Shown piece by piece: positions 22,207-35,720 of a stretch of 35,720 bases of DNA. The notes below the pieces were generated by a model, which saw nothing but the letters and a program-made list of their open reading frames with translations, was not told the origin of the DNA and made no database searches. A program made the position numbers and the translations under genes. Origin of the DNA: a bacterium. Lineage in GTDB: Bacteria > Pseudomonadota > Alphaproteobacteria > Rickettsiales > RI-342. Position 1 is the first letter of the stretch. Every line of letters starts with the position of its first letter. The stretch is taken from contig WGMV01000034.1 in the NCBI GenBank assembly GCA_016124905.1, positions 1 to 35,720 of the forward strand. Reading direction: 5' to 3'.

Positions 22207-24093
22207 GTGCAGCTATACGCCCCCGACATTGCGCCCGACATCGTTCAGCAAATCACCAACTGGCTGACCGGGCATGATATTCAGGCGGCCAACACGCCTG
22301 TTCTCGGCTTAAGCGCCAATATCCCCGCAGGCGACATTGGCACCTACACCCGCAGGCAACCTCAAAAGCCCGACTGGTGGCTGAACATTCAGCATCATTG
22401 CCCTGCGCTGATGCCCTATATCCCGCGCAACCAATCCCCCCAGGCGACACTGGACTGCCATATCGGCATCCGCCGTGGATATGAGCCAGCCCTGGCTGGC
22501 GCCATTGCCAGACTGGCTGTTAAATCCATGCTGATAAACGAATCCCAGCTGGTTGCGTTTCAGACGGTGTTACACGAAGCCCTGCTGAATGCCCTTCTGC
22601 ACAGCCATCTGGATATGCAAAGCGCCTATGACGATCTGGATTCCTTCAACGAATTCCATCAGGCCATTCAGGAGAAACTGCAAAAACTCCCCGGTTATTT
22701 ATGGATCGGCATGCGAATGCAGCTTCAGACAAACGGGGTGACCCTTTCGGTCACCAACCAGCTGCGCCTGGCGGAGGAATTCCCCCTGCGCGGGCCGCTG
22801 GCCATGCACGGGCGTGGCTTGAATGTCATGCGCCATTTCTGCAAACAGGCAGTGTTTTACCCCCTTCAGGGCGAACTGATCGCCAGTTTTAACCCACCCC
22901 GCACCTCGCCCGCACCGGCAGACAAAGCGGCCCTCAGCCCTTCCATTCTGATTGTGGATGATACGGCGTTCAACCTGCGCCTGCTTGATCAGATGCTGCG
23001 CATCAATGGCTACAGCAACATCCATACGGCCATGGATGGCCGCGCCGCACTGGACATGCTCCCCCATATCGCGCCGGATCTTGTTATTCTGGACCTGATG
23101 ATGCCGGTGATGAACGGCTATGAATTCTGCCAGGCGCTTCGTGCCATGCCGGCTTATGCCAACCTGCCCGTGCTGGTGCAGACGGCGCTCACTTCGCCGG
23201 ATGAAAAAACCCGGGCGTTCGATGCAGGCGCAACCGACCTCATCACCAAGCCCATCGGCCTTTCGGAACTCCTCGCCCGCACGCGCGTGCATCTGGAAAA
23301 CCGCGCCATGCTCAAGCACCTGCATAATTACCGTGACAAAACCGAGCAGGAACTGGCCGAGGCAGGCCGACTGCAACAAACCCTGCTGCCCACGCCGCGG
23401 CTGCTGAAGCAGCTGGAGAAAACCCATCATCTTCAGGTTTCCCATTATACGGAGAGCTCCTACCAGGTAGGCGGTGATTTCTGGCAGCTGGTGCCATTGG
23501 ATGCCGAGCATGTCGCCATCAGCAACATCGATATTTCCGGCCATGGTATTTCCGCCGCCTTCAACAGCTTCCGCCTGCACACACTGCTGGAAACCTTGCC
23601 CGACAAACACCGCCCCGACATGGCACTGGCCAGCCTGAATGTCAGCTTGCAGCAATGCCTCCCGCGGGGTCATTTTGCCACCATGTTTTACGGCGTGCTC
23701 AACATTTCCACTCATGAGCTGGCCTACGCCACCGCGGCCTGCCCTCCCCCGTTGCTTTACCGTGCCGGGCAGAACGCATGCGAACGGCTGACCCAGCCCA
23801 ATTACCCGCTGGGTGTCATGGCCAACGCAACGTTCAAAACCCATGTGACTCCCTTTATGCCGGGCGACAGCCTGCTTCTTTACAGCGATGCCCTGCTGGA
23901 AGCCTACCCCGCCGGGCAGGCGCACACCCCAACCCATGTGTCGGATATCGAACATTGGATGAAGGAAAAACAGGCCGACGGGCCCGATGCGCTGGTGAAA
24001 CACATCCTGCGGGGTTTTCACGCACATGGCGGCGGCGCCCCCGTATTGCATGATGACCTGACCATCGCCGCGCTGAAGCGCCTTCCGGCGTGA
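22207..24093 (+). CDS. HATPase-REC-PP2C fusion (RsbU/SpoIIE-type phosphatase response regulator)
   Basis: 628 residues combining three signalling modules. Residues about 90-235 form a GHKL ATPase-like domain of the anti-sigma kinase type, with an N-box HEALLNALLHSH (123-134, E124 and N128) and a G-box GRGLNVM (202-208). Residues about 245-365 are a receiver domain with ILIVDDT, phospho-acceptor D296 in ILDLMMPVMNG and the conserved lysine in ITKPIG. After a coiled-coil linker (about 365-395) comes a PP2C/SpoIIE phosphatase domain with metal aspartates in GGDFW (D424), DISGHG (D442) and DDLTI (D616, D617). By family knowledge such proteins act in partner-switching control of sigma factors or anti-anti-sigma proteins. 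GTG start, 7 nt after GGAGG. No partner gene is in the window. Confidence 0.88.
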   Translation: MQLYAPDIAPDIVQQITNWLTGHDIQAANTPVLGLSANIPAGDIGTYTRRQPQKPDWWLNIQHHCPALMPYIPRNQSPQATLDCHIGIRRGYEPALAGAIARLAVKSMLINESQLVAFQTVLHEALLNALLHSHLDMQSAYDDLDSFNEFHQAIQEKLQKLPGYLWIGMRMQLQTNGVTLSVTNQLRLAEEFPLRGPLAMHGRGLNVMRHFCKQAVFYPLQGELIASFNPPRTSPAPADKAALSPSILIVDDTAFNLRLLDQMLRINGYSNIHTAMDGRAALDMLPHIAPDLVILDLMMPVMNGYEFCQALRAMPAYANLPVLVQTALTSPDEKTRAFDAGATDLITKPIGLSELLARTRVHLENRAMLKHLHNYRDKTEQELAEAGRLQQTLLPTPRLLKQLEKTHHLQVSHYTESSYQVGGDFWQLVPLDAEHVAISNIDISGHGISAAFNSFRLHTLLETLPDKHRPDMALASLNVSLQQCLPRGHFATMFYGVLNISTHELAYATAACPPPLLYRAGQNACERLTQPNYPLGVMANATFKTHVTPFMPGDSLLLYSDALLEAYPAGQAHTPTHVSDIEHWMKEKQADGPDALVKHILRGFHAHGGGAPVLHDDLTIAALKRLPA

Positions 24094-24163: not shown

Positions 24164-24239
<76 letters not shown>

Positions 24240-24301: not shown

Positions 24302-27300
24302 TTATTGGTCGATCACGATATCGGCCTCGGGCTTCACCGTAACCAGGTTCGCGTTATAACTGAACGGATCGAACTGATAGGGCAGATCCATCGGGCTATT
24401 ATAGAAAGCCCCCTGCTGCGGCGATACCAGATCCCCTTGCTCCAGCCGACGGGCGAATGCCGAATTAAGCGTGGCATCGGGCGCCTGAATGCTCGGCACT
24501 GCCATAGGCAGATCAAGGTTGGAGATGCCTGGCATGCGCACCGGATCACCCCCCATGCCGCCACCGCCGGAACCGCCGCCACCCGTCGGCGGCACCGGAA
24601 TGGTCCCTGTAATGGTCAAGGTACCTGGCGTGAAACTGACGAGGTTATAGTTATTGTCGTTGAAGCCGGTGATGGTGATGGCATGCGTCGTGCCCGGCGC
24701 GGCCGTGGCATTGGCCGTCGGCGCGATGGTGACGTTATAGGCGTTGATGGCCGTGGCCGTGTCGCCCCCTGCCGCCAGGTTGCCCCAGCTGACGATACTG
24801 CCGTTCAGGCTAGGGTTCGCCTGGCCGTAATTGCGGCTCGTGCTGCCCAGGCTCGCCGTGATGTCCCGCTTGGCCACGTTGATGTCGCCCGCCACGTAGC
24901 TGATCGTGTAGCCCGCCGTGTTCGTCAGCCCGCCCGTGATCGTGGCCGCGCCCACATAGCTGCCCGCGTTGGCGAACTGACCCGCGCCCGCCGCGTAGGT
25001 CGCCGTGCCGCCAAACCCGATGCTCAGCAGCGTGTCGCCGCTTTCCAGGCTGCTCATATCCACCGTGTAGCCCGCCAGGTTCGCCGCGTTCGCATCCCCA
25101 TAGGCGCGGCCGTAATCATTCACCCGCACCACCAGCGTCGGCGCGCTTTCATACAGCAGCTCGTTGCCGTTGGCCGACAAAGCCCCGCACGCGCCGCCAT
25201 AGGTGCAGTTGTAACGGCGGAAGTCCGACGCCAGGTCGATCAGGCTCACTTCCGTCGGGCTGTCCGCATACACCAGCCAGCGGCCCGTCCCGGCATCCAG
25301 GTCGCCGCCCACCGCCTCCGTAAAGCCGCCGTCGGTCACAAAGGTCATCACCGTGCCCGGGCCAGCCGCCGTCGAGCTCACCGTGCCCGAAAGCGTCATC
25401 ACCGCATTCCCGTTCATAAACGTCACCGGCGATGCCCAGCTCGACGTGCCGAGATTCATCGCACCGGTGTTCACATTCCCCACATACACCTGGCTGAACC
25501 CGGCCTGAATCCGGGCGATCTCCGCCGCGCTCAACCCATAAGCGCCCGCCGCGCCGGCAATGTTCATGCTGCGCCCGTTCGTGCTCTGGCGAAGCGCCAA
25601 CTCGCCCGTGCCGCTCACGTTGCCGTTCAGCGCAATATCGTCCGATACCAGCGTCAGGTTCTTGTTCCCCGCCGCAATGGAGCCCGTCGCACCCACCGTA
25701 ATCGTCCCCGTCCCCGCATTCACCGCCCGCGTAACACCCGCAGCACCCGAAAGCGTCACCGCACCGTTGATCGTGATATTGCTGTCATCCGCAACCAGAT
25801 CCGCACCAAGCGTATGCGCATAATTACCCAGCACAATCGTGCCAGCGCCAGCACTCGAATTGCTCGTGTCTACATTCGCGTTAAAAGTCGTCGGCCCCTG
25901 GAAGCTGAACGATCCATCACTCCCAACCGCCGTACCAAGCGCAGAAGATACCGTGATGCCCGTGTTGCTTACAAAACTGGTCGGACCATCAAAGGCATAC
26001 GCGGTGTCGATATCCATCGCGCCCGCATTCGCCTGGCCGATCGTCAGGCTGCCATAGGTCAAATCACCCAGCAACCCGTTGCTGATAGCCAGTGTGCCCG
26101 CTCCGGCGCCAACCCCAATGGTCGCGCCCGCGCTGTAATTACGAATGGTAAGACTGCCGGAAGTACGAATCATGCTCGCCGCATTGCGTTCAATCCGGTC
26201 GGCATCGATCACCACAGCGCCCGTGGCGGATGCACCGCCGATGGTTGCGCCCGCCTGGTTCAGCACAATGTCCGCGCCACTGGCGCTGCTGCCTGCATTG
26301 GCATGCACGTTCACGCTGCCGCTGCCAAGCGAAACAATGCCACCGCTGCCGCCATCCAAATAAAGCCCGGCATTATAGTTACCGGTCGCATTGGTCAACG
26401 CCGTCACATCCAGCGCGCCGCTGGTTGCATAAACCCGGCTTGTATCACCTGCCGCGCCACTTCCGATGTAAAGACCGTGATTATTATCGCCCCCCGGAGC
26501 TGTGGTTACCTGGGCATCCACGGTGACCGCGCCGGTGCCGGTGGAGCCGATCTGCGCATTGCTCTGAAGAATGCCCCCCGTCAGGTAGGATGCCCCTGCC
26601 TGGTCGCGCCCCGTAACGTCGATAGCGCCGTTAACCGTGGTGATGGTGGAATTCACCAGCCAGAACCCGGCTGTTGCAACACCTGCCGTGCCGCCTGTGG
26701 CGGTAATATCGATATCACCCGCCAGCAGGGTGCTGATGGAAGAACCGCCGTTCATCATTAACCCGGCGGAATTACCGCTCACACCCGTGCCACCCGTGGC
26801 ATCAAGGGTAATATTACCGCCCGCCGTGCTGATAGAAGCATTGCTAAGGTCGATACCGTTGGCGCCGCTATCCGTACCATTGCTATGAGCAGTGATATCA
26901 ATATCGCCGCTGCCCGTGCTGATGCTGGAGGCATTCGCCCAAAGCCCCGCTGTACCGGTTACATCCGCCGTAATATCGCCCGAAGCCGCGCTGATGGTCC
27001 CTGTATCAAGGTAAAGGCCGTTATTATCTCCCAACCCGACCGCGCTGCTGGTGGTGATGTCGATATCCGCCGCATTGGTGGCCGTGATCGCCCCGCCTGC
27101 GCTAACCATAATACCCTGGCTGCTATAGCCTGTACTGTTTGCTGTTCCGCTCAGTGTGATGTCGCCTCCGCTGGATGAAATCGCACTGCCCGCGCCCGCG
27201 ACATAGATACCATGGTTGCCCGTTCCCCCCGCCGCCGTAGCTCCCGTACCCGTCACCGTCACCGTGGACGCCCCTTGCGAGCGGATCTTGCCACCTCCGT

Positions 27301-30300
27301 TCACCAGCACGCCATAGGCATCCGCCGCACTGATATTATCACCGCCATGACCCTGCACATTAATGGCGCCAGTGCCCGCCACCGTGGATTGCACGAAGGA
27401 ATTGGCCACCACCGTGCCAATGGCTCCGGCCGCACCATGCCCCGTGAGCGTCACGGAACCGCTGCCCTGGGTTTCCACCGTCGACCCGTTCCATAGGTAG
27501 ATACCCACGCTGGAGGCCTCAAGTGTGCCGGTGCCGTTCAGCACCAGGTTGCCGCTGTTGGTGCGAACCGTCGCGCCATTGACCAGGTTAATTCCATGGT
27601 TGGCCGCGCCGATGCTCGTCCCGCCGTTACCGGTAATGGTCACGCTGCCCGCGCCAACCGCACCCGTGGAAGCAAGCAGGGCGCCGTTGCCAATCACAAC
27701 CCCCTGGGAATCCGACAGGCCATCCCCGCCCGTACCGGTAATATTCACTACCCCGGTGGAGGTAAGCACCTGTGTGCCAATGTCATTGATATCCACGCCG
27801 TAATAGCTGCCGCCACTGGCGATAGCACCCGTGCCGTTCATCGTAATGGCGCCGCTGGTGGATTGGATAATGCTGCCATTATGGATGCTGACGCCATAAA
27901 CATAGTCGGAGATCGTGGCGTTCACGACACCATGCCCATTCAGTGTAATGGCCCCCGCGCCGGAAAGCAGCTGCGCGTTATTGAGTTCGATACCGGCTTC
28001 ATTGCTGGCGGTGCCATATGCCGCGGCATTGGCCGCACTGCCGCCAACCAGAGAAATATAACCGCCGTTGGTGCTGATCACGGTGCCCGAACCAACCGAG
28101 ATGGCGCCCAGCTGGTTATCGTCGTAATCGCTGTTCAGCCTGGTGCGGATGGAACCCGTGGTGGAAGTGATATCGGCTGAACCGCTGAACAGAACGGAAT
28201 TATCCGCATTGAAATTCCAGTTCTTCGCGCCCGCCGTATTGGAAGAGAGCGTGCCGCCGGTCACCAGCAAATCAGCCCCGCTCATGAAGTTCACATTGCC
28301 GTTAAGCGCGCCTGTGTAATTGACGGTGGTATTGCCGGAATTGTTCCACCCGCCGGTCGCCCCCAGCCACAAGGCGCCCGTATTCCAACTCAGCAGGGAA
28401 AGTTCCGCATCACTCAGGGAGAAATTGGTCAACCCGGCCGCCGTGCCGATATTGACCAGGCGCCCCGCCGTGGTGGGCCGCAGCATGATATTACCCGAGG
28501 TCGTCATACTGATGGCGGCGCCCAGCGCTACTGAATCCGCCATGATGCGCAGCGTTTGGTCCGTGCCGGTGATGGTGCCGGTCGCCCCGGTGATGACCGT
28601 GGCCGTGCCCGCATTGATGTCCCGCGTGGCCGATGCACCGGACAACGTAACGGGACCGTTGATGGTAATGTCGCTGTCATCCGTGGTCAGATTCGCGCCC
28701 AGCGTATGCGCGAAATTTCCGAGCGTAATAGTGCCCACACCCGCCGAGGAGGGAGCCGCACTGACATTGGCATTAAAGGTCGTTGCGCCGTTAAAGGTGA
28801 AGTTGGCGTTGCTGGCTGCAGCCGTCATCTGGCCGCCCGCCACCGTAATCGTCTGGCCAGCCTGAGCGCGGAAAGTAACCGGATCGCGCCAGTTGCTGTA
28901 AGCATCCATACTCAGGCTACCGCCCGCTGCCGTGTTGCCGATATTGATGCCTGTCCAACCATTGGCGATATTATCCAGATCCGCGGTGGAAAGCGTCATG
29001 TTACCGGCCTGCCCCGCCAGCCCCATGGTGTAAGTGCCGTAGGTCTGCAAGGTAAGGGTGCCGCTGCCCGCCAGTGTGTTATTGATGTTCACGTCACCGG
29101 CTGTCGTCACCTGCACAGTGGCGACGGAACCGAAATTCTGCGCGCCGCTGAACTGGATCGTACTGCCCGGTCCGCTTTGCAGGTGGATCTGCGAACTGGC
29201 CGTGGTCGCCCAGTTGCTGTATGCGCCAATATCCATCGTACCGGTCTGGCCGGAGAGGCCTATCAGCAGAGTGGCAAAGCCAGTCATATGACTCAGCTCG
29301 GTAGCATCAAGCTGATATGCTCCCGCCCCGCCCGCAATGCCCATGTTACGATTGATCGTGCTTACGTCGAACCGAAGACCGATATTGGTACCGACCCCAT
29401 TCATCGTACCGGCGATGTCGATATCGTTCGAATCAACACGAAGGCTTTCGTTGGTGGTGAAATTCAGCACCCCGGTCGCAGGCAGGATGAACGTGCCGGT
29501 GCCCGGATTGAAAAAGCGGGTTCCCTGCATGTTCACCGTGCCGTCCACCGTGATGTTGCTGTCATGCGCTGTCAGGTCCGCAGCAATCGTATGGCTGAAA
29601 TTATTGAACGTGATCGTACCCACACCCGCGCTGGAATTGGTGGTGTTCACATCTGCATTCAACGTGGTCGGGCCGTTGAACGTGAAGCTGCCATTGCTTG
29701 CCGCTCCAGTGGACTGCACCTGATTGACGGTAATCAGACCGCTGCTGTTGGCGTTAAGTGTAAGGGGGTCTCTCCAGTTGGTGTAGTTATCCATATTGAT
29801 AATGGTGGCGCGGCTGCTATCCCCTATCGAAATACTTGCCCAGCCATCGGTAATATTGTCCAGTTCGGCATCGCTCAGCGTGATGGTGCCTGCCGCGCCA
29901 CCAAGACCGATGGTTGTACCATTATTGATGTTGGAGATGGTCAGATTGCCGCCCGCAGATGCGATGGCGGCATTAAGCTGCACCTCGCCCCCCATCCAGA
30001 AACTCATGTTATGGCCGAGCATATCGATGGCATTGGCAACGGTAGCGCCGCCGCTTCCACCCAATACGGCCAGGCTGGAATTGAAATTGAACCCATCCAG
30101 CGTAATCAGGCCGCTGCTGTAGCTACCAAATCTTACCCCACCCGTGCTTGCCCATCCATTATCCAGATAGCCAAGCTCTATATCACTTAAATCCAGCCCA
30201 CCTGTGGGGCCGCCAAGGTTGATGGCACGGCTACCTGTTGCGGCGCTAACCATAAGAGTGTTGGCCGCGCCACCGGTGATATTCGCGCCAATGCTCATGT

Positions 30301-33300
30301 TATCGGCGGTCAGAACAAGGTTGTTGGCGAGGCTGCTGATGGTGCCGGTGGCGGCGGTTGTGAAGGTACCCGTACCGGCATTGATGATGCGGTCCCCCGC
30401 GCCGCCGGTTGTAACCGCGCCGTTGATGGTGATGTTGCTGTCATCCGTGGTCAGGTCGGCATTTAGCGCATGCACAAAATTATTCAGCGTAATCGTGCCC
30501 GCGCCCGCGCTGGAATTGGTCGTATTTACATTGCCGTTAAACGTTGTCGGTCCATTGAAGGTAAATCGCCCGTCAGAAGCAACCCCCGTCGTCAGCGCGC
30601 CGTTCACCACGATGCTGCCTGCATTGCTGCTGGTCAGCGTCAGCGGGTCGGACCACTGGCTGGCACGAATCTCCACATTGGTTACGGTTGTATCGCCCAC
30701 CGTGATGCTGGACCAGCCCGGGATGATGCGCGTGAGCTCGGTGTCATCATACAGCGTCGTGCAGGTGCTGCCGCAGGTTGCGCCCGTGCCAATGCCGATG
30801 CGGCCCGCAAAGTAGGAATAAAGGGACAACGTGCCCGTGCCGCTGATGGTGTCATTCAGCGTAACTTCGCCATTGGTATAAATAGTCATGTTATTGGAGC
30901 CGGTATTCTGCGCGGCATTGATCTCAATGGGAGCAATCGACCCGAGAAACTGCACACTGTCGTTCCAGGCAATCGCGCTATTGACCTTGATATTTCCCGA
31001 CTCGCCATAAAAATCAATATAGGCAAAACCATCCTGCAACAGCGCCAGCTCGGCCAGGCTTATATTCATGTTGGCGCCGCTGCTCGTGCCGATATCCATC
31101 GTCGCGCCGCCCTTGGCCCAGATCATGATATCGCTGGTGCCGCTGAGCGTGCCAGTAGTATTGAAATCACGCCCGACGATGTTGATGTCGTACATACCGC
31201 CGATAATACGTCCGTCCGTGGTCGTGCCATTGTCATTGATGCTGACTAACCCAGTTTCAGACCAGATATAGACAGCATAGGCTGCCAGGCTGGTGGGGCC
31301 GTTGACATTAATGGTACCGGCATCCGTGCGCAGATTGGCCGTCAGGCTATGCGAAAAATTTTCAAGCGTGATGGTACCGGTCGCACCGGCGGAATTGCGG
31401 GCATCCACCACGGCATTGATGATGGAAGGCCCGTTGAAATCGAAACTGGCATTGCTGCCCACCGCCGTGGTTTGTGATCCGCTAACGGTGATGTTGCCGC
31501 TGCTGCCGTTACGGAACGTGATCGGGTCGCGCCAGTTGCTATACGTATCCACCGTCATGGTGGATGTGCCGGTGGAACTGCCGATGGTGATTTGCGACCA
31601 GCCATTAGCCAGGTGATCCAGTTCAGCATCATCAAGATTCAGCGCGCCCGCGCCACCGCCCAGGCCAACGCTGGTGGAATCCGTGCTCGGCACAACATAC
31701 AGATAGCCCGTGCCGCTGATATCGGCATTGATGGCCATGTCCGAATCGGTAAAGAATACCAGCGTGCCGCCATTATAAGTCTGCGCGCCGCTGATGGTCA
31801 TCTGACCGGAGCCCGTCGCAAGCTGCGTGGCATCGCTATTGTTCCAGGTATACTGCCCCACATCCATCGCGCCGCTGCCCCAGGCAAGGCCGATATTCAA
31901 CGTGCCCCAGCCGGAGATGAAATCCAGCTCGCTGTCATCCAGGTTCAACCCGCCCGCGCCGCCGCCAAGGCCGATGCTGCGGTTAGTGCTGAACTGGCGG
32001 ATATCAAGCTGCCTCGTGTTGGTGCCGGTGATGGCACCCTGAACGTCCATATTATCGCCAATCAGCACCAAATTGCGTGTACCGGCGGTAATGCTGCCGG
32101 TATTAGAAATACTAATACCGCTTGTGCCAGCATTGATAGTGCGGGTGGTGCCCGCCGCGCCGGAAAGAGACACAGCACCGCGAATCCCGATATTGCTGTC
32201 ATCCGTAGTTAAATTCGCGCCTAGTGTGTGGGATCCGACATTGCGCAATATGATCGTACCGAGACCCGCCGCTGAATTGCTGGTATTAATGTTGGCATTG
32301 ATAGTTGTACCGCCAAAAAAGTCGAAAGCACCGTCGCTGCCTACCGCAGTTGACATGGCGGAACTGACAGTAATTCCTGTATTACTGTAAAAGGTCATCG
32401 GGTTATCAAATGCGAATGCGCTGTCGATGGTCATGGCGCCGGCATTGGCCTGGCCGATGTCGATACTGCCCGCTGTGATGTTGCCCAGCAGAGTGTTGGT
32501 GATCTTCAACGCGCCGGCACCGCTGCCTACCCCGATCGTGGTGCCTGCCGTACGGTTCCGCATGGTGACCTTGCCGGCGGATTGATAGGTTGTATTGGCA
32601 TCGACAATGCCGTTAGCTGTAACGGTGATATTCCCTGTAGTCGCACTGCCGACCGTTGCCGAACTCCCCCCACCCAGATAGCCATATTCAAAAGCCGATG
32701 CACCGGAACCAACCGCTGTAATGGCGATACTTCCCCCACCGGTCGAATTAATGGACGGGTTGGCCCAATAGAAAATCCCCATGCCATCATTCGAACTTCC
32801 GTAAGCTGTTCCAGTAAGCGAAATACTCCCGGTATTAGTCTGAATTAACGTATCATATTCGATTGCGATACCAGCATCGCCACCCGCTCCATTGCCGCCA
32901 TATCCGGTCATGGTAATGTTGCCTGCTCCGGTAGAGCGAATCGTGCCACCACCCGTGGCGCCCGCATCGGAATCATTACCGGTATAAATACCATAAGATT
33001 CGGTGCCATTGCCGTCATTACCATGACCTTCCAAGGTAATACTGCCGTCAACGGTAGTGATGGTGCCGGGAATCCATAGTCCCGGCGTGATGCTGTTGCC
33101 CGTAACGGAGCCAGGGCCATAGCCGGTTAGATTGATTGCGCCGGTACCACTGGTAGAGACCGTGGTTCCTTTACGCAGATAAATACCGCCGCTTGCCTGA
33201 TGTGTACCATAATTGGTACCCGTCATGTTAATGGCGCCGTTGACGGAAGAGATCGTACCGTTATTCAGCCATACCCCGCCGCCCTGGTTATCAGCCCCGG

Positions 33301-35720
33301 TCGCACCGACACCGATCATGGTGATATCACCATTGCCCGAGGAAATACTGTTTGCTCCGGTAATAATCTGAATACCGGCAAGCGTCCCACTTCCCGGGCC
33401 GCCAGTCCCATTCATATATATCGTACCACCGTTACCGGTAGTCTGAATGGAGCTTCCATTCGTCAGCACAATACCGCTATGGTCGGCGGAATCACCGGCA
33501 TTGGCATACCCGTCGCCACGCAGGGAAATAGCCCCACCTGCCGCATTCAGCGTCGCGCCATTAAGGATAATGCCGTTTTTATAACTTGCCGTGCCCACCG
33601 CGCTATTGGTGGCGGGGGTGGTGGTGCCGCCCAGCGTGATGGAACCGCCGTTGGTGGCATAAACGCTGCCGCTGCCAAGGCTGATCGCCCCGCCGGAGGC
33701 ATTATCGTAATCACTGGCGATCGTCAGGTTGATGGAGCCGGTACTGGCGGTGATATCGGCCGATCCCGACGCGACAAATGAGCCATCAGCCAGGAACTGC
33801 CACGTTTTTGCACCAGCGGTGCTGACGGAAAGCACCCCGCCCGTATGCAGCAGGTCCGCGCCGCTCATGAAATTCACATTGCCGTTAAAGGCACTGGTAA
33901 TGTTAACGGTGGTGTTTCCCGAATCATTCCAGGTACTGCTACCACCCAGCCACAATGTGCCGCCATACGTAATGCGCCCAAGCATGGCCGAGGTAATATC
34001 CAGCGTCTCGGTCGTCACGCCCACACCAACGGTGGTGGCGCTATTACGCGGCCGAATCGCCACATCTCCGGAAGTACGAATATTATCGTTATTGCTGAAC
34101 GACATGCGGTCAGCGATCAGCTCAATAGTGCCGGTCGTTCCCGCATTGCCGATATCCTGAGCATTGCTGTCGGTAGAGATTCCGTCCGTCGTTCCCGCGC
34201 CCTGCCCGGTCAGTGTCAAAGTGCCAGCACCGGTGATATAGATGTCGGAACTATCCTGCATCCAAATGCCATAGCTGTTGCTGGTGGAGTTGGTGTTGAT
34301 GCCCGTAACGCTCAACGCCCCGCCCGCCGTATAGACCTGCGCATTATCCATGAACTGCACGGCGCTGTTGTCGGTACCCGTGCCGCTGTTGCCGATGATG
34401 GTGAATGCTCCGGTACCCGTATAGGCGTTAAAATTGACACCGCCGAACTTGATACCGTGCGTATCCGCCCCGCCTGTACCGCCTGTACCGGTCAGGTTGA
34501 TACTGCCGGTTCCCACGGCGCGGATATAGGTTGCGCTGCTGCCCCAGATATCGATACCGGCTGCCCAGCCGCCACCATTATTTACACCGCCGGTGCCGGT
34601 CATGCTCAACACACCGTCCGTCACTTCCACGGTGGAATCGGACAGCTCGATACCTGCATGGTCCGCACCATTGGTAACACCGCCACCCCAGCCGTTCAGC
34701 GTTACATTTCCGCCAGCGCTGGTCGTAATCAGCGTACCGTTATCGATGCTGATGCCGTCCCAGTCGTTACCACCGCTTGCCACATACCCACGGCCGCGGA
34801 CGGAAATACTGCCCCCTCCGGCATTCAGGGTTGCGCCATTCAGCAGCACCCCGTCCTGATGCGCAGAGCCGCCAATCGCTTCATCCGTTGTCGGGTCAAG
34901 CCCGCCACCAAGAACGATCGCCCCGCCCCTGCTCAGCAATTGCGAGCCTGAGCCAACGGCAATCGCGCCGGTGGAAACATTGTCGCTGTCGGAATTCAGA
35001 GTGATATCGAATACACCGCTGCTGGAAGTGATATCCGCACCGCCTGTCAAGCTGATGTCGTTTTTCGCGCGCAGCGTAATGCTGGAACTGCCGGCCCCCG
35101 TGTAGCTGATATTGGCATTCACGGTAATGTCGTTATCGGCAATCAGCGTCAGCGTGCGCGCCGCCGACCATGTAAAACCGTTGGAAACCGTAATGTTACC
35201 GGGGCTGCCGCCTGCGGATGCCGTGGTGACGATGACGTTGGAAAGGGCCAGCTGGTTTTGCAGTGTGGTGGTGTTCAGAATCGTGCTCGCACCTGCGCCG
35301 GTAAACTGCGTACCGTCCCAGGCTGCGGCGTTTGCGCCGGTGGAAATAGTAATGTTGGTCGGGTCGAGCAGCAATGTCCCGATGGTTCCTCTATAGGAGC
35401 GCACATCCGCCGTTCCCACGAAATCCAGCCAATGTTTGCCGGAAACTTCGACGAAGCCGCCATTGCCGGATTCGGCGCCGCCTTTGGCTTCGATATGGCC
35501 GTAAAAGCCCGTATTCTCATCCGACCAGGTGATGACCTTGCCGCCCTTGCCGTTGGCGATGGCGCTGGCTTTGATGGTTGCATCCGCGCCGATATAGGTC
35601 GTTTTGGCCGCAGACGTGTCGCCCTGGCCCTGATAATCCCCGCCGATTTTCACCTCGCCGCCGCCCGTGCGGCCGCTCGCGTTGATCAGCGCATGGCCCG
35701 TCACCGCAACCGTGTCGCCC
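24302..35720 (-). CDS. Giant filamentous-haemagglutinin-type repeat adhesin, C-terminal 3.8k residues (runs off right edge)
   Basis: One uninterrupted minus-strand frame, open at the right edge (visible start GDTVAVTGHALINASG, no start codon). The first visible 110 residues (GGKVITWSDENTGFYGHI, GGFVEVSGKHWLDFVGTADV, GTLLLDPTNITIST) are the stretch that follows the two-partner-secretion domain in FHA-like exoproteins, so the signal peptide and TPS domain should lie within about 1-2 kb outside. The rest is Gly/Thr/Asn/Ser-rich beta-helix-like repeat sequence. A motif of the type IGLGGGAGxLxLxDAELDxI followed by GWxxIxIG recurs about 13 times. Two MBG/YDG-like domains (about 25140-24620) precede a Gly-rich linker and a non-repetitive Pro-containing tail of about 95 residues. 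The only cysteines I noticed form CGSTC and CTYGGAC. Secretion by a TpsB partner is inferred; no partner gene is visible. Confidence 0.85.
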   Translation of the reverse strand, partial: GDTVAVTGHALINASGRTGGGEVKIGGDYQGQGDTSAAKTTYIGADATIKASAIANGKGGKVITWSDENTGFYGHIEAKGGAESGNGGFVEVSGKHWLDFVGTADVRSYRGTIGTLLLDPTNITISTGANAAAWDGTQFTGAGASTILNTTTLQNQLALSNVIVTTASAGGSPGNITVSNGFTWSAARTLTLIADNDITVNANISYTGAGSSSITLRAKNDISLTGGADITSSSGVFDITLNSDSDNVSTGAIAVGSGSQLLSRGGAIVLGGGLDPTTDEAIGGSAHQDGVLLNGATLNAGGGSISVRGRGYVASGGNDWDGISIDNGTLITTSAGGNVTLNGWGGGVTNGADHAGIELSDSTVEVTDGVLSMTGTGGVNNGGGWAAGIDIWGSSATYIRAVGTGSINLTGTGGTGGADTHGIKFGGVNFNAYTGTGAFTIIGNSGTGTDNSAVQFMDNAQVYTAGGALSVTGINTNSTSNSYGIWMQDSSDIYITGAGTLTLTGQGAGTTDGISTDSNAQDIGNAGTTGTIELIADRMSFSNNDNIRTSGDVAIRPRNSATTVGVGVTTETLDITSAMLGRITYGGTLWLGGSSTWNDSGNTTVNITSAFNGNVNFMSGADLLHTGGVLSVSTAGAKTWQFLADGSFVASGSADITASTGSINLTIASDYDNASGGAISLGSGSVYATNGGSITLGGTTTPATNSAVGTASYKNGIILNGATLNAAGGAISLRGDGYANAGDSADHSGIVLTNGSSIQTTGNGGTIYMNGTGGPGSGTLAGIQIITGANSISSGNGDITMIGVGATGADNQGGGVWLNNGTISSVNGAINMTGTNYGTHQASGGIYLRKGTTVSTSGTGAINLTGYGPGSVTGNSITPGLWIPGTITTVDGSITLEGHGNDGNGTESYGIYTGNDSDAGATGGGTIRSTGAGNITMTGYGGNGAGGDAGIAIEYDTLIQTNTGSISLTGTAYGSSNDGMGIFYWANPSINSTGGGSIAITAVGSGASAFEYGYLGGGSSATVGSATTGNITVTANGIVDANTTYQSAGKVTMRNRTAGTTIGVGSGAGALKITNTLLGNITAGSIDIGQANAGAMTIDSAFAFDNPMTFYSNTGITVSSAMSTAVGSDGAFDFFGGTTINANINTSNSAAGLGTIILRNVGSHTLGANLTTDDSNIGIRGAVSLSGAAGTTRTINAGTSGISISNTGSITAGTRNLVLIGDNMDVQGAITGTNTRQLDIRQFSTNRSIGLGGGAGGLNLDDSELDFISGWGTLNIGLAWGSGAMDVGQYTWNNSDATQLATGSGQMTISGAQTYNGGTLVFFTDSDMAINADISGTGYLYVVPSTDSTSVGLGGGAGALNLDDAELDHLANGWSQITIGSSTGTSTMTVDTYSNWRDPITFRNGSSGNITVSGSQTTAVGSNASFDFNGPSIINAVVDARNSAGATGTITLENFSHSLTANLRTDAGTINVNGPTSLAAYAVYIWSETGLVSINDNGTTTDGRIIGGMYDINIVGRDFNTTGTLSGTSDIMIWAKGGATMDIGTSSGANMNISLAELALLQDGFAYIDFYGESGNIKVNSAIAWNDSVQFLGSIAPIEINAAQNTGSNNMTIYTNGEVTLNDTISGTGTLSLYSYFAGRIGIGTGATCGSTCTTLYDDTELTRIIPGWSSITVGDTTVTNVEIRASQWSDPLTLTSSNAGSIVVNGALTTGVASDGRFTFNGPTTFNGNVNTTNSSAGAGTITLNNFVHALNADLTTDDSNITINGAVTTGGAGDRIINAGTGTFTTAATGTISSLANNLVLTADNMSIGANITGGAANTLMVSAATGSRAINLGGPTGGLDLSDIELGYLDNGWASTGGVRFGSYSSGLITLDGFNFNSSLAVLGGSGGATVANAIDMLGHNMSFWMGGEVQLNAAIASAGGNLTISNINNGTTIGLGGAAGTITLSDAELDNITDGWASISIGDSSRATIINMDNYTNWRDPLTLNANSSGLITVNQVQSTGAASNGSFTFNGPTTLNADVNTTNSSAGVGTITFNNFSHTIAADLTAHDSNITVDGTVNMQGTRFFNPGTGTFILPATGVLNFTTNESLRVDSNDIDIAGTMNGVGTNIGLRFDVSTINRNMGIAGGAGAYQLDATELSHMTGFATLLIGLSGQTGTMDIGAYSNWATTASSQIHLQSGPGSTIQFSGAQNFGSVATVQVTTAGDVNINNTLAGSGTLTLQTYGTYTMGLAGQAGNMTLSTADLDNIANGWTGINIGNTAAGGSLSMDAYSNWRDPVTFRAQAGQTITVAGGQMTAAASNANFTFNGATTFNANVSAAPSSAGVGTITLGNFAHTLGANLTTDDSDITINGPVTLSGASATRDINAGTATVITGATGTITGTDQTLRIMADSVALGAAISMTTSGNIMLRPTTAGRLVNIGTAAGLTNFSLSDAELSLLSWNTGALWLGATGGWNNSGNTTVNYTGALNGNVNFMSGADLLVTGGTLSSNTAGAKNWNFNADNSVLFSGSADITSTTGSIRTRLNSDYDDNQLGAISVGSGTVISTNGGYISLVGGSAANAAAYGTASNEAGIELNNAQLLSGAGAITLNGHGVVNATISDYVYGVSIHNGSIIQSTSGAITMNGTGAIASGGSYYGVDINDIGTQVLTSTGVVNITGTGGDGLSDSQGVVIGNGALLASTGAVGAGSVTITGNGGTSIGAANHGINLVNGATVRTNSGNLVLNGTGTLEASSVGIYLWNGSTVETQGSGSVTLTGHGAAGAIGTVVANSFVQSTVAGTGAINVQGHGGDNISAADAYGVLVNGGGKIRSQGASTVTVTGTGATAAGGTGNHGIYVAGAGSAISSSGGDITLSGTANSTGYSSQGIMVSAGGAITATNAADIDITTSSAVGLGDNNGLYLDTGTISAASGDITADVTGTAGLWANASSISTGSGDIDITAHSNGTDSGANGIDLSNASISTAGGNITLDATGGTGVSGNSAGLMMNGGSSISTLLAGDIDITATGGTAGVATAGFWLVNSTITTVNGAIDVTGRDQAGASYLTGGILQSNAQIGSTGTGAVTVDAQVTTAPGGDNNHGLYIGSGAAGDTSRVYATSGALDVTALTNATGNYNAGLYLDGGSGGIVSLGSGSVNVHANAGSSASGADIVLNQAGATIGGASATGAVVIDADRIERNAASMIRTSGSLTIRNYSAGATIGVGAGAGTLAISNGLLGDLTYGSLTIGQANAGAMDIDTAYAFDGPTSFVSNTGITVSSALGTAVGSDGSFSFQGPTTFNANVDTSNSSAGAGTIVLGNYAHTLGADLVADDSNITINGAVTLSGAAGVTRAVNAGTGTITVGATGSIAAGNKNLTLVSDDIALNGNVSGTGELALRQSTNGRSMNIAGAAGAYGLSAAEIARIQAGFSQVYVGNVNTGAMNLGTSSWASPVTFMNGNAVMTLSGTVSSTAAGPGTVMTFVTDGGFTEAVGGDLDAGTGRWLVYADSPTEVSLIDLASDFRRYNCTYGGACGALSANGNELLYESAPTLVVRVNDYGRAYGDANAANLAGYTVDMSSLESGDTLLSIGFGGTATYAAGAGQFANAGSYVGAATITGGLTNTAGYTISYVAGDINVAKRDITASLGSTSRNYGQANPSLNGSIVSWGNLAAGGDTATAINAYNVTIAPTANATAAPGTTHAITITGFNDNNYNLVSFTPGTLTITGTIPVPPTGGGGSGGGGMGGDPVRMPGISNLDLPMAVPSIQAPDATLNSAFARRLEQGDLVSPQQGAFYNSPMDLPYQFDPFSYNANLVTVKPEADIVIDQ
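24550..24590 (-). other. Gly-rich linker in the adhesin
   Basis: Encodes PTGGGGSGGGGMGGDP, separating the MBG/YDG-like part from the unique C-terminal tail (residues RMPGISNLDLPMAVPSIQAP and onward to PEADIVIDQ). A flexible hinge is the likely role. Confidence 0.7.
24620..25140 (-). repeat. Two tandem MBG/YDG-like domains of the adhesin
   Basis: First copy begins VRVNDYGRAYGDANAANLAG and ends INVAKRDI; second begins TASLGSTSRNYGQANPSLNG and ends FTPGTLTITG. The paired pattern YG-x-A-N-P/A and the closing ITGFNDNNYNL / GTLTI strands are characteristic of MBG-type beta-sandwich repeats found near the ends of large surface proteins. Boundaries are approximate. Confidence 0.7.
25190..25911 (-). 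repeat. Adhesin array unit, isolated sixth copy
   Basis: Begins FSFQGPTTFNANVDTSNSS and contains DDSNITINGAVTLSGAAG, the same order of motifs as units 1-5 at 28190-32329, but separated from them by a large type-1 block. It is followed by the CTYGGAC region and the MBG-like domains. Confidence 0.75.
25912..28180 (-). repeat. Adhesin type-1 block, copy 3 (about 2.3 kb)
   Basis: Starts GSADITSTTGSIRTRLNSDY and is made of short strands alternating GSGxVxSTNGG, GIxLNNAxL, GxGAITLNGHG and NITGTGG. It shares start and end motifs with copies 1 and 2 but is much longer. Its end (LTIGQANAGAMDIDTAYAFD) matches the end of copy 2 nearly residue by residue. Boundaries approximate. Confidence 0.7.
28190..32329 (-). 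repeat. Adhesin tandem array: five units, period about 880 bp
   Basis: Five copies in tandem, each opening with F-x-F-x-G-x-T/S-x-x-x-N-x-x-V/I (for example FTFNGPTTFNGNVNTTNSS). Unit starts read by eye: about 32329, 31446, 30572, 29690 and 28806, so spacing is 883, 874, 882 and 884 bp (about 293 residues). The fifth unit is shortened to about 620 bp by the following type-1 block. Each unit also carries SNITINGAV-like, NWRDPVTF-like and GWxxIxIG motifs. Copies differ substantially in sequence, so they are old. Confidence 0.75.
32330..33790 (-). repeat. Adhesin type-1 block, copy 2 (about 1.45 kb)
   Basis: Starts GSADITASTGSINLTIASDY, runs through LNGATLNAAGGAISLRGDGY and ends SIDIGQANAGAMTIDSAFAF directly before the first array unit. 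Codons in this block are noticeably more AT-rich than in the C-terminal part of the gene. Boundaries approximate. Confidence 0.65.
33830..35050 (-). repeat. Adhesin type-1 block, copy 1 (about 1.2 kb)
   Basis: Starts GGADITSSSGVFDITLNSDS, runs through LNGATLNAGGGSISVRGRGY and ends at LGRITYGGTLWLGGSSTW. The segment after it (NSGNTTVNITSAFNGNVNFM, SGADLLHTGGVLSVSTAGAK) recurs before copy 3, as NSGNTTVNYTGALNGNVNFM and SGADLLVTGGTLSSNTAGAK. Confidence 0.65.

Follow-up and report, generated by a model that had tools for sequence, protein, structure and literature searches.

A giant exoprotein gene with a tandem array of a composite 293-residue repeat in a Rickettsiales genome: a probable beta-helix fibre of the two-partner-secretion kind

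The closest described counterpart of the locus considered here is EtpA of enterotoxigenic Escherichia coli, a TpsA exoprotein with a parallel beta-helix, which carries three 228-residue repeats and a partial one of 219 residues, with nine coils each (PMC11100705, PMC10284417); these repeats are free of extra-helical domains (PMC10284417). In other TpsA proteins, namely FhaB, HxuA and HMW1, long imperfect repeats form a beta-helix fibre after the TPS domain (PMC5422565). The Periscope Proteins (SasG, Rib and Sgo_0707) use the number of tandem units to set the length of a rod, the units being highly similar folded domains that recombine easily and vary within species (PMC8201768). Finally, Giant1-5 of Apilactobacillus kunkeei are described as several giant (3000-8000 aa) beta-solenoid surface proteins, which, in a small genome, account for several percent of the total (PMC12863079). 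The giant ORF that we analyze here carries a repeat array that probably belongs to this already known kind: a two-partner-secretion-like protein, probably forming a beta-helix fibre. More specifically, we consider it very likely that it codes for a TpsA-type giant exoprotein with a beta-helix stalk made of a composite 293-residue repeat, and that paralogues have acquired and lost units of this repeat and probably traded them in register. The likeness to EtpA would lie in the TpsA-type exoprotein, the parallel beta-helix and the large tandem repeats of near-fixed length. However, sequence similarity between the two is not detectable (a profile of the unit has no match among PDB sequences), and the repeat here is a 293-residue composite for which two helices per unit are predicted, as against the plain repeats of EtpA.

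The window, i.e., the whole stretch of DNA analyzed, is the complete contig C34 (35,720 bases; 59% G+C) of a genome of 2.36 Mb in 47 contigs. Its giant ORF (Table 1) looks like a TpsA-type (FHA/EtpA-like) two-partner-secretion exoprotein whose own N-terminus, with the presumed secretion domain, falls outside the window, cut off by the contig end. In the paralogue on contig C19, the counterpart of residues 1-420 of the giant ORF directly follows the TPS domain. This domain (PF05860) is recognized in the paralogues on C11 (E 1.6e-29) and C19 (E 1.1e-31), and the FHA N-terminal domain TIGR01901 is present in the former as well; in this respect they resemble FhaB, HxuA and HMW1. In contrast to those proteins, the unit here lies outside the Pfam and NCBIfam repeat families, a search of which returned no family above threshold for the array repeat, and MBG_2 domains are present near the C-terminus. 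At least eight TpsA-like genes are found in the genome (on C34, C33, C19, C11, C15, C3, C9 and C8), several of them longer than 8 kb, and together they amount to about 70 kb or about 3% of the assembled genome, with only two ShlB-type transporters found. These TpsB genes (PF03865 over the cut-off) are at C3:19-948 and C1:12523-13404, with none within the window; the C1 copy is just upstream of a TpsA start, and the end of that contig has an overlap of 64 nt with C19. Secretion of the giant protein would proceed via a TpsB partner, and we ascribe to it a putative role in surface adhesion. By description, Giant1-5 offer a parallel for several giant solenoid proteins claiming a few percent of a genome, the difference being that they belong to lactic acid bacteria and hence are without two-partner secretion. 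Past the 3' end of the giant gene, at a distance of 62 bases, the opposite strand carries a tRNA-Ala (GGC) gene (24164-24239), and a gene for a response regulator with a SpoIIE phosphatase domain (22207-24093) adjoins the giant gene in convergent orientation.

Table 1. Layout of the giant exoprotein gene within the window, in order from its 5' end.
Feature	Position	Strand	Evidence or remark
Giant exoprotein ORF, 3805 aa	24302..35719	minus	5' end cut by contig end
Post-TPS segment, residues 1-420	34460..35719	minus	64% identity to C33, 63% to C19
B block 1, shorter GTGG/NGS-type repeats, outside the 293 array	32600..34459	minus	sequence and paralogue alignment
Tail (last third) of the unit before the array	32327..32599 (partial-unit match 33166-32330)	minus	72% identical to C33 tail
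Complete unit 1, 294 aa, residues 1132-1425	31445..32326	minus	75% identical to C33 unit
Complete unit 2, 293 aa, residues 1426-1718, most diverged of the four	30566..31444	minus	
Complete unit 3, 293 aa, residues 1719-2011	29687..30565	minus	unit profile
Complete unit 4, 295 aa, residues 2012-2306	28802..29686	minus	unit profile
Truncated unit 5, residues 2307-2522, model positions 1-207	~28154..28801	minus	end runs into B block 2
B block 2	26270..28309	minus	68% identical to C33 B block 2
Second, short array: unit tail (model 102-293) and first two thirds of another (1-193, from 25909)	25331..26482	minus	
C-terminal region, MBG_2 domains	24305..25102	minus	PF18676, E 2.1e-10, two stretches

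Unit boundaries were defined by means of a profile made from the units and iterated over related proteins of the same genome. The array thus delimited comprises four complete units of 294, 293, 293 and 295 residues arranged head to tail (32326-28802), after which a fifth ends at about two thirds of its length. In a protein-level self-comparison, the best 40-residue self-match scores at offsets of 293-295 residues are 101-166, whereas composition-shuffled sequence scores 52 at most; at a stricter threshold, 3268 residue-offsets are covered in the real protein and none (0) in its shuffle. Hence, the regular tandem array of about 880 bp that had been noted in the initial annotation is borne out, and so is the strong divergence claimed for its units: the four complete ones are 28-43% identical in pairwise comparisons, and the longest exact DNA repeat within the array is 18 bp. 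Its finer description needs some correction. Of the five units counted there, only four are complete and one is truncated, and partial units also occur at 33166-32330 and 26482-25331, with the latter partial array falling outside the range of 28190-32329 that had been given for the whole. The unit starts proposed (32329, 31446, 30572, 29690 and 28806) are near the profile boundaries but each off by 1-7 bp, and the profile-defined spacing is 879-885 bp rather than 874-884 bp.

The 293-residue unit is itself a composite of one GPTT module of about 90 residues, starting with F.F.GPTTFNANV...GTITL.NF.H.L, and two ELD modules of about 100 residues, typified by the motif L..AELD.I..GW..I.IG...W.DP and separated by about 102-104 residues in the self-comparison. 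The ELD module alone, with a period of about 100 residues, is found in the paralogue on C3 and in the genomes G024 and G104, while a 272-273-residue composite is seen in G026 and G403, and two units about 291 residues apart in G137. Given these ELD-only and ~272-residue arrays in relatives, 293 is a higher-order period, and as such it is present in one part of the order. With the source genome included in each case, matches at E 1e-15 or better were obtained in 9 of 263 genomes of the order and in 4 of 398 drawn from the phylum. Scans of genome contigs with two units and with an alignment of the ELD module recovered no named relative.

Structure prediction suggests that the central part of the protein is probably a parallel beta-helix. 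The AlphaFold2 models were built from window sequence only (2-3 sequences): that of units 3-4, made from three window-derived rows, has a mean pLDDT of 80.5 and a pTM of 0.80, is almost entirely beta-strand and beta-helix-like, and shows helices at 128-133, 232-235, 421-425 and 527-531, so that each unit has two, located at its ELD motifs. The model of units 1-2 is weaker (pLDDT 63.9), with helices at nearly matching positions (131-137, 233-237, 424-428 and 528-531). On comparing the two-unit model with known structures using VIA-align 2, EtpA came first, with a Z of 12.4 and an rmsd of 6.5 over 422 residues; next were PL6 alginate lyases and HxuA (Z 11.9 and 11.6 for the latter). Being near 12 for a repetitive solenoid, such scores may reflect a common arrangement alone. 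Foldseek with the same model gave only weak matches, none below E 0.3. Taken as model comparisons, these matches would fit a parallel beta-helix, without showing common descent. As the 228-residue repeats of EtpA have nine coils each, there are about 25 residues per coil, which by analogy would give roughly 11-12 coils for each 293-residue unit. The GTGG/NGS-type blocks interrupt the 293-residue arrays of C34, C33 and C19 at comparable positions within the unit, past the first ELD helix (26270-28309 and 32600-34459 in the window).

The near-constant spacing had initially been taken as a structural ruler, with length conserved far better than sequence and each unit contributing a fixed length of beta-helix to a surface fibre. 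Under such a scenario, selection would hold unit length near 293 residues, such that every unit adds an equal length whatever its sequence. The array in the window favors it to a degree: its units measure 293-295 residues despite their 28-43% identity, and their mean net length difference is 1.2 residues versus 5.6 for random-sign indels (six non-independent pairs); C19 also leans this way, with 3.7 versus 7.1. However, the 16 complete units from four paralogues span 288-318 residues (median 294.5), the net length difference across all 120 (again non-independent) unit pairs is 6.7 versus 8.1, and in C11 it is even larger than for random-sign indels, at 15.3 versus 13.5; indels are not generally compensated across the paralogue units. 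The periods of about 100 or 272 residues in other lineages likewise speak against a fixed length, and, since the within-array pairs are few and non-independent, a low net value in one array counts for little. Hence, a length maintained by selection appears improbable to us. The continuity of a solenoid and in-register recombination suffice to account for the observations, making selection for an exact length of 293 residues unneeded, and, most simply, the length of the unit would be kept as in any solenoid that needs continuous coils. Thus, the ruler is not supported as such, and it is left standing only in a weak form, in that the fibres differ by whole units. The addition of a beta-helix block by each unit agrees with the beta-helix-like model, the best alignment to EtpA and the whole-unit differences between paralogues, whereas an exact length of that block, held by selection, is not supported.

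The comparison of paralogues gives a view of how the number of units has changed. The alignment of C34 with C33 extends over 2658 residues at 62% identity, and their arrays correspond both at the start (tail 72%, first unit 75%) and at the end (truncated unit 68%, next block 68%); over its first 164 residues, truncated unit 5 shares 68% identity with the unit at the array end of C33 and 64% with its C19 equivalent. The start of the first unit lies 1175 residues from that of the truncated unit in C34, as against 293 residues in C33; the excess of 882 equals 3 x 294. Apart from about three additional units in the C34 array and one additional unit in the second array of C33, the two proteins are collinear. 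Between matching array ends, the complete units number one in C33, four in C34 and six in C19. Such numbers could recall a periscope-like array, in which the unit count would shift quickly between strains and change the projection of a tip domain; as in the Periscope Proteins, the number of tandem units would set the length of a rod. Yet, the repeats of the latter are highly similar and recombine easily (PMC8201768), whereas those of C34 are 28-43% identical with exact DNA repeats of at most 18 bp. Moreover, the units here would be strongly diverged parts of one solenoid rather than separately folded domains, and the variation is seen between paralogues only. Accordingly, we give this alternative little credence.

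A tree of the 16 units shows no grouping by gene: a topology uniting the C34 units is rejected (p-AU 8e-43), and so are those uniting the units of C19 or of C11, although the detail of the tree is limited by long branches (unit 2 of C34 and one C33 unit), with the placement of unit 2 being uncertain. For unit 3 of C34, identity is 61% with two units of C11 but 31-43% with the rest of its own array. Given that the units of an array are not monophyletic, the array is either old or its units were shuffled between genes; in other words, it would predate the gene duplications, or units would have moved from one gene to another.

A mundane source of such patterns would be the assembly, if reads of different paralogues had been joined into an artefactual array. 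Indeed, the contig ends inside the giant gene in 141 nt (35580-35720) that are common to positions 1-141 of C33, and the end of the C19 contig has 129 nt identical to 26011-25883 of the window, making the 3' part of the giant gene less sure. Against this, the exact matches in the array itself (32 nt at the longest to C19, C33 or C11; 18 bp internally) are short for misleading an assembler, and a tandem 293-type unit recurs in the complete gene on C11. With no internal repeat longer than 18 bp, short-read collapse is unlikely, and, together with the 32-nt limit on paralogue matches, this makes the unit count of C34 probably right. We therefore consider an artefactual origin of the array very improbable. 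Contig breaks in sequence common to the giant paralogues are a recurrent feature here (141 nt in C34/C33, 64 nt in C1/C19 and 129 nt in C19/C34), leaving the gene ends uncertain in the assembly.

Briefly, we advance the following picture of the TpsA-type exoprotein with its composite stalk. The stalk would be a parallel beta-helix forming the central part of the giant protein, its 880-bp period arising from one ~90-residue 'GPTTFNANV..GTITL' module and two ~100-residue 'ELD' modules, each of the latter predicted to place a short helix on the solenoid. Each unit would add about 11-12 coils and, going by that coil count and an inferred rise, about 5-6 nm of fibre. Paralogous genes would acquire and lose whole units, and probably swap them in register, so that a single genome would encode stalks of differing length. 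A bolder version, which we regard as rather unlikely, is that this one genome maintains graded beta-helix fibres (1, 4 and 6 units), with lengths quantised by the composite repeat and units exchanged among them, such that several fixed stalk lengths are displayed.

The array repeat, being without a Pfam or NCBIfam model, could become a new family entry. As the ELD module occurs alone or regrouped in related lineages, the growth of very long secreted fibres may be traceable step by step. The locus would thereby illustrate the hierarchical build of a large TPS-type fibre, from modules of about 100 residues to a 293-residue unit, which is then multiplied to a number that varies between paralogues.
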